This document shows positions 3,470 through 20,956 of a stretch of 39,701 nucleotides of DNA, in pieces. Both the position numbers and the translations under genes were made by a program. The stretch is taken from positions 1 through 39,701 of IMG/VR virus record IMGVR_UViG_3300017788_000069; one strand, written 5' to 3'. Numbering within the stretch: position 1 is the first letter of the stretch; every line of letters begins with the position of its first letter. A model generated the notes under the pieces. It was given only the letters and a program-made list of their open reading frames with translations, was not told the origin of the DNA and did no database searches. This DNA comes from a virus.

Positions 3470-3541
3470 TGCCCGATAGCACAACGGTAGTGCACGGCAC
3501 TGTTAATGCTGGGGTTGTAGGTTCAAATCCTACTCGGGCAG
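3470..3541 (+). tRNA. tRNA-Asn (anticodon GTT)
   Basis: A full cloverleaf can be drawn by hand. The acceptor stem TGCCCGA/TCGGGCA has 7 pairs. The D arm is GCAC with loop AACGGTA and GTGC. The anticodon stem CGGCA/TGCTG encloses the loop CTGTTAA with anticodon GTT. The variable loop is GGGTT. The T arm is GTAGG, loop TTCAAAT, CCTAC. The discriminator is G73. No CCA is encoded, so the host CCA-adding enzyme would have to supply it. The G28-T42 pair is a wobble. It is the only canonical tRNA I find in the window. Confidence 0.95.
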
Positions 3542-5374: not shown

Positions 5375-6412
5375 ATGGCAAAAGGCTTAGACGTCGGAAC
5401 ATCGTTTATCGTGTTTGCGTCCGATGCGCGCAAACAGGTAGCGGACAATAACACTGAGATGGTGGACTACGTGGCGTACAAAGAGTTTCGCGACGCGTTT
5501 TATATCATCAAACCCACGACACCCGTTGCGACCAAAATGATTGAAAAAGGTCTGCAGGGCCGCGTATTTGTCAAAGACGCCGACGGCAGTTTTATTTTGC
5601 TCGGCCAAGACGCCATTGAAAAAGCCGTGGAGCGCAACGATTCCGCGAAGCGTCCGATGTTTCGTGGCGTAGTATCGGCAAAAGAGAAAGAAGCAAAACG
5701 CGTATTGGCGTTTATTCTCAAAGAGGTGGTCGGACAGGCAGCAGAACCGCAGGAAAAAATTGTGTTTTGCGTGCCCGCGCAACCTGTTGATCAGGGCGAC
5801 GATGATTTTGACGTGGGTTATCACGAAGACGTTGTGCGGACGATTTTAGGCGAGTGCGGCTACGCCGCCCGCGCAATCAACGAAGCCGAGGCGCTGTGTT
5901 ACTCGGAACTCGAAAATGACGACTACACTGGCGTGGCGTTGTCGTGCGGCGCCGGCATGGTGAACTGCTGCGTCATGCTCAACGGCGAACCGACGGTGAT
6001 GTTTTCGACGACCAAGTCGGGAGACTGGATTGACCGTATGGCTTCTGTGGCGACGTCTGAGCCGGATTCCGTGGTACAAGCCGAGAAAGAACACGGCGAT
6101 TTCACCATCGGTGGCGCACCGTCCGAGAATGCGGTACTCGCTGCCGTGCAGGCGTACTACGAACGTTTGATTGACTACACGACAAAAAATCTTGCTGCGG
6201 CCATGTCAGGACACAAATTGCTGCCCAAGTTCAAAAATCCGTTGCCGGTTGTTATCGCCGGCGGCACGAGTCAGGCGAAAGGATTTGTGGACATGTTTGC
6301 CAAGAAACTAACCGAGAACAATTTTCCTTTGCCGGTGGCTGAAGTGCGCCACGCCAATGATCCGCTGCACGCTGTTGCGCGCGGCTGTTTGATCGCCGCG
6401 AAGGTGCTGTAA
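5375..6412 (+). CDS. Actin-like ATPase (ParM/MreB/FtsA superfamily)
   Basis: A 345-residue protein with the actin/Hsp70 nucleotide-binding signature. Phosphate 1 is GLDVGTSFIVFA at 4-15; the connecting segment has INEAEALCY at 168-176; phosphate 2 is VALSCGAGMVNCCVM at 187-201; the adenosine motif is VIAGGTSQAKGF at 293-304. It is larger than typical ParM and close to MreB. Known phage actin-like proteins segregate or position phage DNA, and this one could do the same. It follows a small membrane protein by one base and ends just before a strong terminator, so it closes a transcription unit. Confidence 0.88.
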   Translation: MAKGLDVGTSFIVFASDARKQVADNNTEMVDYVAYKEFRDAFYIIKPTTPVATKMIEKGLQGRVFVKDADGSFILLGQDAIEKAVERNDSAKRPMFRGVVSAKEKEAKRVLAFILKEVVGQAAEPQEKIVFCVPAQPVDQGDDDFDVGYHEDVVRTILGECGYAARAINEAEALCYSELENDDYTGVALSCGAGMVNCCVMLNGEPTVMFSTTKSGDWIDRMASVATSEPDSVVQAEKEHGDFTIGGAPSENAVLAAVQAYYERLIDYTTKNLAAAMSGHKLLPKFKNPLPVVIAGGTSQAKGFVDMFAKKLTENNFPLPVAEVRHANDPLHAVARGCLIAAKVL

Positions 6413-6447: not shown

Positions 6448-6480
6448 AAAAGGGCCCTGCTATGCTGGCGGGCCCTTTTT
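6448..6480 (+). terminator. Rho-independent terminator after the actin-like gene
   Basis: Ten-pair stem AAAAGGGCCC (6448-6457) with GGGCCCTTTT (6470-6479), a 12-nt loop and a terminal T run. It lies 35 bases after the actin-like gene stop. Confidence 0.9.
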
Positions 6481-6965: not shown

Positions 6966-6994
6966 TTTAGTTTGGCGGAATTTTGTGTTAGAAT
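6966..6994 (+). promoter_or_regulatory. Possible promoter for the 231-nt structured RNA
   Basis: TAGAAT at 6989-6994 resembles a -10 box and lies just before the closing helix of the RNA. TTTAGT at 6966-6971 is 17 bases upstream of it but is a weak -35 match. The site is suggested mainly by position. Confidence 0.35.
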
Positions 6995-7230
6995 AAAGTG
7001 TGTATCGTGAGTTGGCCGTGGTGGTCGGCCGGTTAGGGCGGCAGCCGGAGCATGATGCGCCGGCCGCTGCTGGACTTGTGGTCAGGTTTAGTCGTGAGCA
7101 CGAAAGGAGGCGCGGCGAATATCACACGAAGCAATTCGTTGCTTTTGAAAGTCGCCGTGAAGTCGAGATTGCGGTTTCGACAGGACCCGCGGAAGGGGAT
7201 CGCGGGGGCTCGCGATACACACTTTATTTT
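6995..7230 (+). ncRNA. Candidate structured RNA closed by a 17-bp helix
   Basis: Bases 6995-7011 pair with 7209-7225 over 17 consecutive positions (one G-U pair), enclosing 197 bases rich in local hairpins: 7014-7018/7026-7030; 7041-7048 with 7060-7063 and 7067-7070; 7092-7095/7100-7103; 7113-7118/7152-7157 enclosing 7129-7134/7139-7144 with a UUCG loop; 7162-7166/7177-7181; 7186-7191/7201-7206. The last strand of the closing helix is followed by TTATTTT, which could help termination. A reading frame crosses it (7000-7356) but has an unlikely composition and overlaps the next gene. I do not see SRP, RNase P, tmRNA or 6S signatures. The class is unknown. Confidence 0.72.
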
Positions 7231-7244
7231 AATCCGGTTTTGCC

Positions 7245-7634
7245 ATGTTTGATGCAATCATCGTGTCATTATCGGTGTTTATCGGCGCATTTGGGGTGGC
7301 GGCGTTTGCGGGGCTGGCGACGCTTTTGCGTTTCGGCAAAAAAATCTCTATACTGACTATTGTCAGCGCGATGCTTAATTCGGGATTTCTCGGATTGGCG
7401 ATTTCGCTCATTTGGTACGAAAACTATCAAAAAGCCGCAAATATTCACGGCCTCATCGGCGTCTGTGTTTTAGCCGGCATGGGTGGATCGACAATTACAG
7501 ATATTTTGATCAGCCTGTTATCGGGCGCCGGCATTAAGATCATCATCAACCATGAAAGGGACCGCGATGAAATCTCTCGCTACGCTGACCGTGGAGACGA
7601 TGATAGCCGACCAACATTCCCGCAATCGCCTTAG
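7245..7634 (+). CDS. Holin-like integral membrane protein
   Basis: A 129-residue protein with three hydrophobic segments (about residues 2-27, 34-56 and 66-95) separated by short loops and followed by a charged tail rich in Arg and Asp. The layout, with conserved small residues (GAFGVAAFAGLATLL, GLIGVCVLAGMGG), resembles LydA-type phage holins. Holins form inner-membrane lesions that time lysis. The start ATG has no clear Shine-Dalgarno sequence and lies 15 bases after the structured RNA, so the RNA could influence its translation. A small membrane protein gene overlaps its end, as in lysis cassettes. No endolysin of a classical type is adjacent. Confidence 0.6.
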   Translation: MFDAIIVSLSVFIGAFGVAAFAGLATLLRFGKKISILTIVSAMLNSGFLGLAISLIWYENYQKAANIHGLIGVCVLAGMGGSTITDILISLLSGAGIKIIINHERDRDEISRYADRGDDDSRPTFPQSP

Positions 7635-7775: not shown

Positions 7776-9038
7776 ATGGACGGCGTTTCGATTTTTAACG
7801 AACTGGCGTGGCAGCCTGAATTTTTTGCCGCCCAGCCGGACTATCAAGCCGCAAATGCGCTCGGCTGGTTGTACCGCACCAACAAACAGGCGTCGGTCAG
7901 CCATTCTTTAGCCGGCCGGTTGTATCTAGCCAAAAGTGGCTGGCTATTGTTGTCGGTGCCAAATTCGTTGGTCCGCGGTCTGTTTGACGCGTTGACCGCA
8001 CCCGGCATCGAACTTCCAACAGCCGGCGTTTTAAATGTGCCGAACGTCAAGGAAGACGTTTTGAATGCGCATATATCAGTCATGAACGCCGATGAAGTCG
8101 CCTCTATCGGGGCTGACAAGATTAGCGAACGCGGACACATGTTCGGTTACACGTTGGGCCATTTAACAGAAGTTGAGCCGCGAAATATCGATGGCGTAAG
8201 TAAACTCTGGCTACTGCAGGTGGCGAGTCCAGCGTTGGCGGCGTTGCGCAAAAGTTATGGGCTGGCGCCGTTACCCAACGGTCACGCGTTTCACATTACA
8301 ATTGCCGCGCGGCGAAAAAAAGTGTTGCAAAACAATGACGTCAGTAAAATTGCCGTAAAAGGAGCCTCCAGCCATGCGTCTGATTCAACCGCCAGCGACC
8401 GAAGTAGCGCCGCCGCCGACAATGAAAAAACCGAAGAAAAAGTTACCGCGGATATCGTGCCCGACGTGTCAGCCGCCGAAAAACCAGAAATCCAAGCCGA
8501 AGAAGTAAAGCGGCCGCGCATTATTGACGAACTGTTGGCCGCGAAAGCGCATTCAGACGCTGGACGTTATGCGCATAAAAATGACATTGTGCGCCGACTT
8601 ATGATGACGGCTCCCGCTGAGTGGCAAATCGATCAACCAAATTTGCCGTACAAAGGCGTGCGCCATATACCAACTAAATTCAAATTGCACATCGATCCGG
8701 CGGTTATTCCTCCGACAGTTAAAGCCGCCGACAGCGTGTATCTTGATCAATTTAATTTGCGCAACATGCTGGCGGCGCAAAATCCGATTTCGTATGACAG
8801 GCAGCAGCCAGTTATGGCAAATGTGCAGAACTATTTGCGGCGCGTCAAGAATCGCGGTGATTTTCGGTTGATGGCCGAGCGGAACAACGAAAATTATCGC
8901 GCAACGTTTGATCCTGCATATCGCCAACAACGCGCGATCGCCGCGTTTCGTAATACACTTCCGGGTCCGTCGCTGACCGATCAACTGATTGAGCGGCACG
9001 GCGATTCATTACTCGACAAATTAGGGGCCGCGTTATGA
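7776..9038 (+). CDS. 2H phosphoesterase-like N-terminal domain with long tail
   Basis: A 420-residue protein. Two H-x-[S/T] motifs, HIS at residues 99-101 and HIT at 173-175, about 75 residues apart, each in a hydrophobic strand (NAHISVM, AFHITIA), match the hallmark of 2H phosphoesterases, which act on cyclic phosphodiesters of RNA or nucleotides. Residues about 190-250 are an Ala/Ser/Glu-rich disordered linker. The C-terminal 170 residues, with several Tyr/Arg/Asn-rich stretches, are unassigned and may be a virion or peptide-binding region. A plausible use is RNA repair or removal of cyclic-nucleotide signals. The next gene overlaps by four bases. Confidence 0.6.
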   Translation: MDGVSIFNELAWQPEFFAAQPDYQAANALGWLYRTNKQASVSHSLAGRLYLAKSGWLLLSVPNSLVRGLFDALTAPGIELPTAGVLNVPNVKEDVLNAHISVMNADEVASIGADKISERGHMFGYTLGHLTEVEPRNIDGVSKLWLLQVASPALAALRKSYGLAPLPNGHAFHITIAARRKKVLQNNDVSKIAVKGASSHASDSTASDRSSAAADNEKTEEKVTADIVPDVSAAEKPEIQAEEVKRPRIIDELLAAKAHSDAGRYAHKNDIVRRLMMTAPAEWQIDQPNLPYKGVRHIPTKFKLHIDPAVIPPTVKAADSVYLDQFNLRNMLAAQNPISYDRQQPVMANVQNYLRRVKNRGDFRLMAERNNENYRATFDPAYRQQRAIAAFRNTLPGPSLTDQLIERHGDSLLDKLGAAL

Positions 9039-16570: not shown

Positions 16571-19500
16571 ATGCCCGAACAACTGCCCGCGACGCCCGCC
16601 CCGCCGCAGTTTCGCGAATTTGGCGACGTTGGTGCGCTGCGCACCAGTATTTTTGATCGGGCGTTGCACAGCGCGCAGAATATCGAGCCGGTCCAGAATG
16701 ATCTGTACACGCTGCGCCTCGCCAACGTCGGCTATTCTGGCCCGGAACGTTTTAACAAGGCCGCGCAGAAAAGGGCCGTGCTGACCAACGGCTCGTTAGC
16801 GCGCAAACTCACCGGCACATGGGAACTGGTCGATAACAAGACACAGCAGGCCATCGCGTCGCGCGCCACGACAATCGCCAACGTGCCATATTTAAGCGAC
16901 GCCGGCACGTTCATTAACAAAGGCGTCGAATATACGCTGGCGCATCAATTGCGGTTGCGGCCGGGCGTGTTCACGCGTGAAAAAGAAAACGGCGAGTTGG
17001 AAGCCCACGTGAATACACTGCCCGGAAAGGGCCGCTCGCACCGCTATTACATGGACCCGAAAACGGGCGTATTTAAAATTCAAATCGGTCAGGCGCAAAT
17101 TCCGCTGATGCCACTGTTAAAAACACTGGGAATACCTGAAAAAGACATTCGTGACGCTTGGGGCAATGAGATCACCGCCGCCAACATGGAACAGGGTGAT
17201 GCCGGCACGATCGATAAGATTTACAAACGTATGGCGTACAAAGCCGATCCCAATCTCGACCAACTGGGAAAAATTAAAGCAATCGCGGCGGAATTTGCCA
17301 AGACCGAATTTGACGAAGAAGTCACGCGGCGCACGCTGGGCACGCCGTACAAAAACATGACGCCGCAGACGATTTTGGACATCACCAAAAAGTTAATTGC
17401 CGTCAATCGCAAAGAGGCCGATTCAGACGACCGCGACAGCATGGTGTTTCAGCAGGTGTACGGCCCCGAAGATTTAATTGCCGAGCGGTTCATCAAAGAC
17501 CGCGCGAATCTGCGCCAATTACTCTGGAAAGCCACGGCAAAAAAGAGCCTGAATCATATTTCGGCCGGCACGTTCAACAAGGCGATTAACGCGGCGCTCA
17601 TCGGCTCTGGTTTGGGGTCGAGTTTAGAAGAGATCAATCCAGCCGAGATTTTCGACCAGCAGACACGCGTCACGCGTTTGGGCGAAGGTGGCATCGGCAG
17701 TATTGACGCCATTCCAGCCGAGTCGCGCAGTGTACAGCCGAGCCACTTTGGCTTTATTGACTACTTAAGAACGCCAGAAAGCGGCAAGGTCGGCGTCGAC
17801 ATGCGCTTCGCAGCCGGCGCGAGAAAATCTGGCACGAACCTCAATACGTTCGTCATTCCCGTACGCAATGCCCGCACCGGCGAAGTCGAGCATAAAACAC
17901 CACAGGAACTCGCGGATATTCCGCTGATGTTTCCGGGGGAAGAAAAGAGCGACCTGCCGATGGTCGCGGCGCTTGTGAACGGCAAAATCAAATATGTGCC
18001 AAAAGACAAGGCTGAGTATACCGTGCCCAACATGGATAACACGTTTTCGTCGTTGACGAATATGGTGCCGATGAAATCCATGGTCAAAGGGCAGCGCGTG
18101 ATCATGGGTGCGCGCATGTTTACGCAGGCGTTGCCGCTCGTCAATGCCGAGTCGCCGTTGGTGCAGTCAGCCACTGCTGACGACCCCAATACGTCGCACG
18201 AAGACAAGATGGGCGCGAACTTAGGCGCGATTCGCGCGAAAGGGCCGGCACGGGTCGTGTCGGTTACGCCAGATGAAATCGTACTGCGCGACCAAAATGG
18301 CAATAAAGACGTCATTGACCTGTATAACGACGCGCCGTTCAATCGCAAAACGTTTTGGACGCAAAAAGCCACGGTGCAGCCGGGTGATGTTGTACAGCCC
18401 GGGCAATTACTCGCGACGTCGAACTTTACTGATCCAAACGGCTCGGCAGCGCTTGGCATGAATCTGCGGGTGGCCTATCTGCCGTTTCGCGGGCGGAATT
18501 ACGAGGATGCGGTGGTGATTTCTGAGTCGGCGGCCAAGCGACTGACGTCAGAGCACATGTATCAGCACGAAGCACAGTGGGACGACAATTCACATGTCGG
18601 CAAGAAGGCATTTTTAAGTTTGTTTCCCGGCGAATATGACCGCAAGATGCTCGACAAGTTCGACGATAATGGCGCGATTAAAAAAGGCACCGAGGTTAAC
18701 TTTGGCGACCCGTTGATTTTAGCCGCAAAGAAACGCGATCAGGTGTATGGCAAGGTGCATCGCGGTCGGGCCGGTAATTTTGCCAACGAAACCGTGACGT
18801 GGGAGCATCATTCGCCCGGCATTGTCACGGACGTCGAGCATACGAAAAAGGGCGTTAGCGTGGTCGTCAAGTCGAAGTCCCAGATGGAGGTGGGCGACAA
18901 ACTGACCGGGCGTTTTGGCGATAAGGGCGTTGTGGCCGAAATTGTTCCCGACGATCAGATGCCGCGTGGAAATGATGGCAATCCGTTCGAGGTTTTAGTC
19001 AGTCCGTTGGGTCTCGTCACTCGCGTCAATCCGGCCCAAGTTGTCGAGGCCGCGTTGAGCAAGGTCGCTGAAAAAACCGGGCGGCCGTTCAAAATCAAAG
19101 ACTTCGACTCGGACAACGATCTTGTTGAGTTTGCGCTGAAAGAATTAAGCAAGCACAATCTGTCGGACACAGAAGACGTCACCGATCCCGAAACCGGCCG
19201 TAAAATTCCCGGTATTCTGACCGGCAAGCGGTTTTTCATGAAATTGCACCATACGGCGGAATCCAAGGGCCAAGGCCGGTCGATCGGGTCATATACGGCA
19301 GAGGGCACGCCGGCCAAAGGCGGATCAGAAGGAGCCAAACGCGTCGGCATGCTGGAACTCGGCGCCTTGCTTTCGCACGGCGCTGGCAAAGTCATTCGTG
19401 ACGCCAAAATGGTGCGCGGACAGGCGAATCCCGAATATTGGACGCAATTTATGGCCGGGTATGATCCGCCGCTGCCCAAAGTACCGCATGTGTACGAAAA

Positions 19501-20956
19501 GTTCGTCGGCCAATTGCGCGCGGCTGGAATTAACACTGTGCGCACCGGCAGTAAGACGCACATTATGGCCATGACTGACAAAACAGTGGACGAGTTGGCT
19601 GGCGACCGCGAATTACAAAATGCCGAGACCGTCGATTGGAAGGGGAATTTAAAACCGGTGCGTGGCGGCCTGTTCGACGAAACGCTGACGGGCGGCCACA
19701 ACGGCAATCGGTGGAGCAAGATCACGCTGCATGAACCGATGCCCAATCCCATCATGGAAGAGCCGATTCGCCGCACGCTGGGCCTGACCGAGAAGCAGTT
19801 TCGGGATGTGCTCTCGGGTGCGATGCCGCTGAACGAGAAAACCGGCCCGCAGGCGATTGCCGACGCATTGGGCAAAATTAATCTGCCGAAAGCCATCGAT
19901 CAAGCGCGGGAAGACATTAAATCGGCGCGCAAAAACGTTCGCGATGCGGCCGTGCGGCGACTGGGCTTTTTGAAGGGGGCCGAAGCGTCTGGATTACATC
20001 CTAAAGACTGGATGATGACGAAAGTGCCGGTACTTCCACCGATGTTTCGCCCGGTGTCGTCGATTGGGCCGAAAAAGATGCAATTGATCGACGACGCGAA
20101 TTATCTCTACAAGGAGTTATTGGAAGCGAACGGCGTGCTGAAAGAATCGGCTGGCCTTGTGGCTGATTATGGCGGCGAGCGGCTAGGCGTATACGACTCG
20201 CTCAAGGCCGTGACGGGTTTGGGCGCGCCACAGCATCCCAAGAACGTCGAGCGCAATGTCCGGGGCTTTCTCGACAAGATTTTCGGTGACTCGCCCAAAT
20301 TCGGCACCATGCAGCGTAAATTGCTGTCATCAACCGTGGACTTGGTGGGCCGCGGCGTGATTACACCCAATCCCGACCTAGACATGGACGAAATCGCAAT
20401 TCCCGAGGATAAAGCGTGGGATATCTACAAGCCGTTCGTCGTGCGCGGCCTCGTTCGCCGGGGTTTGCCGAGAATGCAGGCGCTACAGGCCGTGACCGAT
20501 CGTAATAAAGCCGCATTTGACGAACTGAATAAGCAAATGAACGCCAAGCCTATCGTGATCAATCGCGCGCCGGTGCTGCATCGTTATGGCGTGATGGCGT
20601 TTTATCCGCGGCTGACCAAAAACAAGGTCATGGAAGTGAATCCGGTGATCACCAAGGGTTTCGGCGCGGATTTTGACGGCGACGCGATGCAGTATCACGT
20701 GCCCAGTACCGACGACGCGGCCAAGGAAGCCGTCGAAAAAATGCTGCCCAGCAAGAATTTATTCTCGACGTCGCAATTTAAAGCCCACTATGTCCCTAAC
20801 AAAGATTATCAAACCGGGGTATACTTGGCGTCGAGCCGTACGAATAATGCCGCGAAGCCGCGCGTGTTTCGTAATCGCAAAGACGCCATTGCGGCCTATC
20901 GGCGCGGCGATGTCGGTATAGACACGCCGGTGCATATTGTGGAAGATAAAGAGTAG
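16571..20956 (+). CDS. RNA polymerase beta fused to N-terminal half of beta'
   Basis: A 1461-residue protein joining two subunits. The beta part (about 1-985) has a fork/Rif-region segment at 356-374 (N356-P357 to G373-G374) with Gln363 where E. coli has His526; NYED at 643-646 matching the E. coli E813-D814 region; Lys777 and Lys785 in GDKLTGRFGDKG, with the same spacing as the active-site lysines K1065 and K1073; and the C-terminal clamp part near 895-960. The beta' part begins around GLFDE (1033), lacks the Cys-rich zinc-binding segment, has VLPPMFRPV, a helical region, INRAPVLHRYG and the catalytic DFDGD at 1367-1371. It ends just before the TTxG region, which opens the second polymerase gene. 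Confidence 0.93.
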   Translation: MPEQLPATPAPPQFREFGDVGALRTSIFDRALHSAQNIEPVQNDLYTLRLANVGYSGPERFNKAAQKRAVLTNGSLARKLTGTWELVDNKTQQAIASRATTIANVPYLSDAGTFINKGVEYTLAHQLRLRPGVFTREKENGELEAHVNTLPGKGRSHRYYMDPKTGVFKIQIGQAQIPLMPLLKTLGIPEKDIRDAWGNEITAANMEQGDAGTIDKIYKRMAYKADPNLDQLGKIKAIAAEFAKTEFDEEVTRRTLGTPYKNMTPQTILDITKKLIAVNRKEADSDDRDSMVFQQVYGPEDLIAERFIKDRANLRQLLWKATAKKSLNHISAGTFNKAINAALIGSGLGSSLEEINPAEIFDQQTRVTRLGEGGIGSIDAIPAESRSVQPSHFGFIDYLRTPESGKVGVDMRFAAGARKSGTNLNTFVIPVRNARTGEVEHKTPQELADIPLMFPGEEKSDLPMVAALVNGKIKYVPKDKAEYTVPNMDNTFSSLTNMVPMKSMVKGQRVIMGARMFTQALPLVNAESPLVQSATADDPNTSHEDKMGANLGAIRAKGPARVVSVTPDEIVLRDQNGNKDVIDLYNDAPFNRKTFWTQKATVQPGDVVQPGQLLATSNFTDPNGSAALGMNLRVAYLPFRGRNYEDAVVISESAAKRLTSEHMYQHEAQWDDNSHVGKKAFLSLFPGEYDRKMLDKFDDNGAIKKGTEVNFGDPLILAAKKRDQVYGKVHRGRAGNFANETVTWEHHSPGIVTDVEHTKKGVSVVVKSKSQMEVGDKLTGRFGDKGVVAEIVPDDQMPRGNDGNPFEVLVSPLGLVTRVNPAQVVEAALSKVAEKTGRPFKIKDFDSDNDLVEFALKELSKHNLSDTEDVTDPETGRKIPGILTGKRFFMKLHHTAESKGQGRSIGSYTAEGTPAKGGSEGAKRVGMLELGALLSHGAGKVIRDAKMVRGQANPEYWTQFMAGYDPPLPKVPHVYEKFVGQLRAAGINTVRTGSKTHIMAMTDKTVDELAGDRELQNAETVDWKGNLKPVRGGLFDETLTGGHNGNRWSKITLHEPMPNPIMEEPIRRTLGLTEKQFRDVLSGAMPLNEKTGPQAIADALGKINLPKAIDQAREDIKSARKNVRDAAVRRLGFLKGAEASGLHPKDWMMTKVPVLPPMFRPVSSIGPKKMQLIDDANYLYKELLEANGVLKESAGLVADYGGERLGVYDSLKAVTGLGAPQHPKNVERNVRGFLDKIFGDSPKFGTMQRKLLSSTVDLVGRGVITPNPDLDMDEIAIPEDKAWDIYKPFVVRGLVRRGLPRMQALQAVTDRNKAAFDELNKQMNAKPIVINRAPVLHRYGVMAFYPRLTKNKVMEVNPVITKGFGADFDGDAMQYHVPSTDDAAKEAVEKMLPSKNLFSTSQFKAHYVPNKDYQTGVYLASSRTNNAAKPRVFRNRKDAIAAYRRGDVGIDTPVHIVEDKE

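Follow-up and report, generated by a model that had tools for sequence, protein, structure and literature searches.

The plus strand of a 39.7-kb IMG/VR virus record (IMGVR_UViG_3300017788_000069), referred to here in its full length as the window, contains at ~6998-7222 a structured noncoding RNA that is conserved as RNA. The RNA is ~225-235 nt long across its family, contains a pseudoknot and represents a previously uncatalogued RNA family, the novelty being claimed at the level of the family and not of the mechanism. As judged from the sequences of relatives in more than 80 viral contigs, in which the sequence varies while the fold is kept, the fold is proven by evolution. The result adds a covariation-proven pseudoknotted RNA family to the widespread, little-studied large phages that have their own multisubunit RNA polymerase.

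The window comes from a tailed phage that encodes a beta/beta' RNA polymerase (16571-20956, Pfam Rpb2/Rpb1 domains) and also PhoH. Judged by domain content, it carries the phage-encoded beta/beta' homologues by which the RNA-polymerase-encoding lineage of Caudovirales (mReC lineage; PMC7481178) is recognized. The RNA lies between the gene for an actin-like protein, a phage member of the Volactin family, whose name derives from a haloarchaeal actin, and a gene for a small membrane protein (Table 1). The latter is a putative holin, an identity that rests on its weak PHROG 6384 match, and no Pfam family was found for it above cut-off. Elsewhere in the window, a tRNA-Asn (GTT) gene (3470-3541) is located directly behind a ferritin-like gene.

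Table 1. Coordinates of the RNA, its structural elements and the neighbouring genes in the window
Feature	Position	Strand	Evidence or remark
Actin-like protein, Volactin family	5375..6412	+	PF25216, E = 2.6e-60; upstream of RNA
Extended -10-like element TGTTAGAAT	6986..6994	+	predicted transcription start about 7001
Structured RNA, family core	~6998..7222	+	covariance-model matches in relatives; 70 pairs
P1 closing helix, 5' strand	6998..7013	+	pairs with 7207-7222; double-sided changes in 13/15 pairs
P2 hairpin	7014..7030	+	100% paired in 44 sequences; 4/5 pairs covary
Pseudoknot 5' arm GUGGU, P2 loop	7021..7025	+	top-ranked extra helix; 44/44 paired
Single-stranded GGUUAG	7031..7036	+	invariant in 44 sequences; kept in three distant homologues
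P3, variable hairpin	7037..7073	+	cap CA-GGGA-UG in most relatives
P4 hairpin with conserved GGUCAG	7076..7103	+	alignment of 44 sequences
P5	7112..7158	+	P5a 7112-7118/7152-7158, conserved internal loop, P5b 7128-7145
Pseudoknot 3' arm AUCAC, P5 internal loop	7121..7125	+	pairs with 7021..7025
P6 hairpin	7162..7181	+	8/8 pairs covary
P7 hairpin with conserved AGGGGAU loop	7186..7206	+	kept in distant homologues
P1 closing helix, 3' strand	7207..7222	+	pairs with 6998-7013
Holin-like membrane protein	7245..7634	+	PHROG 6384 holin, E = 4e-4; ~3 hydrophobic segments (hydropathy)
2H phosphoesterase-domain protein	7776..9038	+	Pfam PF22547; deeper syntenic partner of RNA

The segment 6990-7240 had a folding energy of -124.9 kcal/mol, compared with -88.3 +/- 4.6 kcal/mol for shuffled sequences (z = -8.0, 0/200), and the minus strand gave the same z-score. 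Since both strands fold equally well, folding alone is no proof of an RNA and the strand could be settled only through the relatives. In favor of the plus strand are the orientation, the -10-like element and the fact that G-U pairs are tolerated.

Pairs were counted in an alignment of 44 distinct sequences (A4) made with MAFFT, blind to the structure, which was used instead of the model-fitted alignment. RNAalifold and direct pair counting agreed on the closing helix P1 and on hairpins P2 to P7. Standard pairs occupied 96.6% of 3062 cells, and 52 of the 70 pairs counted had changes on both sides. The covariation score was 0.545, against 0.274 for shuffled and 0.11-0.14 for slid controls; all of these controls fell far short of the real alignment and 0/500 shuffles reached its score. 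About 60 columns were invariant, many of them in loops.

These results bear out the first-pass annotation of the window, which had proposed from the sequence a structured RNA next to the holin-like gene, with several local hairpins inside a 17-bp terminal helix. The hairpins are present in the fold and the long helix covaries, although it is supported only over 6998-7013/7207-7222; the outer A/U pairs that extend P1 to 17-19 bp in the window are not conserved and run into the -10-like element, and P1 is 12-16 bp long across the family. P5a was paired in 100% of the sequences, with 6/7 pairs covarying, and P5b in 98%. A UUCG hairpin with a 6-bp stem had also been reported; it is present as P5b (AAGCAA/UUGCUU, within 7128-7145), but a UUCG loop at this place is peculiar to the window, while in many relatives UUCG caps the next hairpin, P6.

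A feature that had been missed is a pseudoknot of five pairs, 7021-7025/7121-7125, between the loop of P2 and the internal loop of P5. The first pointer to this contact was one column pair in a mutual-information scan, and the same helix ranked first in an unbiased search for extra helices among the unpaired columns. Nine different sequence combinations, GCGGU:ACCGC and GUGAC:GUCAC among them, maintain the pairing throughout the alignment. In three distant homologues the pseudoknot was re-sequenced as AGCAC:GUGCU or GACAC:GUGUC, and in the chance control for these cases shuffled loops matched in just 2-8% of trials each. The compensatory changes suggest clean break-and-repair mutants.

Six contigs were recovered with the holin-like protein as query, and each of them had a similar stretch upstream of the holin-like gene; the exact pattern GTGGTGGYCGGCYGGTTAG gave 43 stretches in viral contigs, one of them spurious. 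One viral contig, L026, contains the 19-nt pattern in exact form together with two partial model hits and was discounted as a chance match. With the covariance model R1, a single copy of the RNA was detected in every one of 28 records, of which five measure 194-205 kb. Of 78 loci collected by way of the actin gene, and hence independently of the RNA, 66 were likewise positive. Among the other 12, L097 has the RNA further away and a holin homologue as well; the remaining eleven records lacked the RNA even when searched with the model R2, and the holin family was absent too, so that L097 is the one R1-negative record with a detectable holin homologue.

Searches of 50,697 phage records, of plasmids and of the GTDB genomes of 84,980 species did not detect the RNA within their sensitivity, and none of the core-pattern matches in GTDB genome contigs was the RNA. 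Model R2 gave no match in Salmonella phage Arash (OQ632216.1) or Vibrio phage D69 (OZ195729.1), nor in two huge phages whose actin is only distantly related. In Arash and D69, which are 181-187 kb, the fused RNA polymerase protein has a homologue over nearly its full length, with 31-32% identity. Two records with the actin but neither RNA nor holin, G031 (197 kb; locus L147) and G038 (244 kb; locus L154), encode proteins resembling sigma70 region 2 and region 4, and behind their actin gene comes one for a Thr-Pro repeat protein. A sigma factor was considered as a possible explanation of the distribution of the RNA; the sigma70 region-2 match was confined to this RNA-less clade, but the RNA-bearing genomes showed region-4 matches as well, all of them weak.

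Full-length divergent homologues were identified by R2 in three more phages (E about 1e-13 to 1e-16), of 94 kb (L263/L264), 226 kb (L265) and 141 kb (L266); L265 and L266 were found by their 2H genes, located just downstream. The RNA polymerase of the 94-kb phage (L075) is 54% identical to that of the window, and the 2H homologue behind the RNA in L263 is 52% identical to its counterpart in the window over 172 aa. In 80 of 80 loci fetched with the holin alignment, the RNA lies directly upstream of the holin-like gene, with a spacer of roughly 10-60 nt and zero inserted genes, compared with 0-3 genes between actin and RNA. The order RNA, membrane gene, 2H gene is retained in the three distant phages, where the gene after the RNA encodes an unrelated one-segment membrane protein in place of the holin. 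Consequently, the RNA keeps its place regardless of the replacement of the next gene.

The motif TANAHT was present in 41 of 49 relatives at a near-fixed distance of -45 to -39 from GGTTAG, against a background of 0.004 per position. In a GC-rich clade the -10-like element is ~20 nt further upstream and an extra 5' hairpin, P0, fills the gap; the element thus shifts with the 5' end of the RNA, the behaviour expected of a promoter tracking that end. P0 was observed just upstream of P1 in eight loci (L237, L228, L239, L232, L220, L219, L216 and L217), between the -10-like element and P1; it often has a GNRA-like loop and its sequence varies. Upstream of the distant RNAs, TACAAT occurs at ~35-45 nt in two phages and TGTTAGAAT at about 80 nt in the third. 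TGTTAAAMT was considered as a general phage promoter and rejected, its other copies being mostly in coding sequence.

Many relatives (L165, L173, L236 and L241 among them) have a boxA-like motif, YTCTTTGACAAYYYG, 40-55 nt ahead of P1, and it is nearly unique within each ~200-kb genome. It sits between the upstream gene and the promoter-like element of the RNA, often followed by a hairpin, and is absent from the window and from loci where actin is immediately followed by the RNA. On untranslated rRNA, Nus factors are recruited by boxA (PMC4807359, PMC10250234) and, by analogy, the motif before the RNA is possibly an antitermination signal.

At the other end of the RNA, no intrinsic terminator was called at 7180-7245 of the window and no conserved terminator was seen behind P1 among the relatives examined. 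A T-rich stretch that could end a short transcript follows P1 in 21 of 49 close relatives and is absent from the GC-rich clade. A terminator-like hairpin with a T run immediately 3' of the actin-like gene (6456-6480) suggests that the phage of the window uses such terminators elsewhere. Between the RNA body and the region around the start of the downstream gene, pairing was near zero in most of 26 relatives and reached 0.2-0.6 in a few. Sequestration of the ribosome site, as in a translation-start riboswitch, was rejected because the ribosome-binding region showed no consistent pairing with the RNA, and hence no expression platform is visible. The absence of a Shine-Dalgarno sequence, claimed earlier for the holin-like gene, holds for the window, where there is no clear one, but not for several relatives.

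The first-pass annotation had offered a stand-alone RNA or a leader of the holin mRNA, and both are still viable. We favor, at just under an even chance, a cis-acting, folded leader at the 5' end of the lysis/2H transcription unit. Its own promoter would give a transcript whose first ~225-235 nt are the RNA, followed by the membrane-protein gene and the 2H gene. The RNA would fold autonomously into a P1-closed multibranch junction, locked where the P2 loop pairs with the internal loop of P5, and would control the unit through transcription elongation, RNA stability or a bound phage or host factor rather than by hiding the ribosome site; it may also be trimmed into a stable RNA. Constant adjacency to a membrane-protein gene, the promoter-like 5' element and the lack of a conserved terminator argue for the leader. 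On the other hand, P1 is long for a switch, the invariant loop nucleotides exceed the needs of a simple leader and, because the entire gene neighbourhood is syntenic, the adjacency of RNA and holin could be mere inheritance. That the RNA controls when lysis occurs is a plausible conjecture, put forward as a hypothesis only, which the constant position before a lysis-type gene makes testable. Close to the cis leader, and credible if somewhat short of even, is a stand-alone noncoding RNA acting in trans (an RNP scaffold, a ribozyme or a regulator of polymerase or ribosome) that is merely placed in front of the lysis cassette, with P1 as a processing or end-protecting helix. The autonomous closed fold with its invariant loop columns, the single copy per genome, the promoter-like element at the 5' end, the unengaged ribosome-binding region, the survival of the RNA when the next gene is replaced and the boxA-like motif, reminiscent of other untranslated RNAs, are all consistent with a trans RNA. 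However, a trans RNA would not be expected to lie always beside a small membrane-protein gene (80 holin loci and three distant loci) or to lack a conserved terminator; moreover, it resembles no known family and no protein partner was found, a Ro/TROVE protein having been searched for and rejected as absent. The exchange of the holin for a different membrane gene while the RNA and 2H gene stay favors cis control over a trans RNA. A more far-reaching and rather unlikely form of the trans reading makes the RNA the central part of a new trans-acting phage RNA machine, a ribozyme or RNP; the target would then be the multisubunit polymerase of the phage, the host polymerase or the ribosome, and this machine, produced along with the lysis cassette, would have been conserved across a deep lineage of large phages.

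The remaining explanations dispense with a functional RNA. An element acting as DNA, such as a replication, packaging or cruciform site that incidentally folds as RNA, would fit the equal z-scores of the two strands and the single copy per genome, but it is very improbable given that the orientation is fixed relative to the genes and the -10-like element and that many plus-strand G-U pairs (UG in 41/44 and 32/44 sequences in P1 and in 28/44 in P4) become A-C mismatches in the complement; the GNRA-like and UUCG loops and the multi-helix pseudoknotted fold also speak against it. The 118-codon open frame at 7000-7356 of the window could be taken for a gene, yet its product matches no family, the relatives have stops in every frame and lengths that vary modulo 3, and conservation tracks base pairs. 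The refuting outcome named in the first-pass annotation, a frame conserved as protein without the helix, is contradicted in both parts, the frame being broken in relatives and the closing helix covarying; a protein was rejected and retains next to no probability.

Comparison with Rfam 15, including riboswitches, GOLLD, ROOL, pRNA, 6S, tmRNA and RNase P, gave no match to a known family at the gathering threshold, and a search at E up to 10 with the window, L110 and L138 returned just chance snoRNA-like matches. No description of the RNA was found in the open-access literature searched.

Several known RNAs share individual properties with this one. The lambda late leader (6S RNA) is an untranslated RNA of ~200 nt between pR' and the S holin gene. 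Both RNAs are untranslated, on the ~200-nt scale and directly upstream of a holin or holin-like gene; however, DNA signals for Q define the leader of lambda, which ends at a terminator and has no such conserved fold, whereas the RNA described here has no conserved terminator. The lysine, cobalamin and SAM-I riboswitches have a P1-closed multi-helix junction with a conserved core, variable stems and a long-range loop contact, an architecture common to the phage RNA. Compared with these aptamers, it has a longer P1, no expression platform found and no Rfam match, and occurs in a single phage lineage and a single gene context only. The packaging RNA of phi29 (pRNA) is a phage-encoded structured RNA that uses loop contacts, but here the contact joins two loops of one molecule and no link to a terminase is visible. 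GOLLD and ROOL are large, highly structured noncoding RNAs, some of them phage-linked (PMC12286853, PMC2864571). They are likewise ornate, but longer and with other folds. Like the polymerase-modifying HK022 put and EAR elements, the RNA is structured and untranslated with no visible control of a ribosome site and, as in put, its predicted location is the 5' end of a phage transcript. Here the phage that carries it encodes a multisubunit polymerase itself. In contrast, put is a much smaller RNA, while the one in the window is pseudoknotted and has no Rfam match. By analogy, a mechanism like that of HK022 put (PMC9378689) or of a large aptamer leader is possible, although on present evidence the RNA belongs to neither class.
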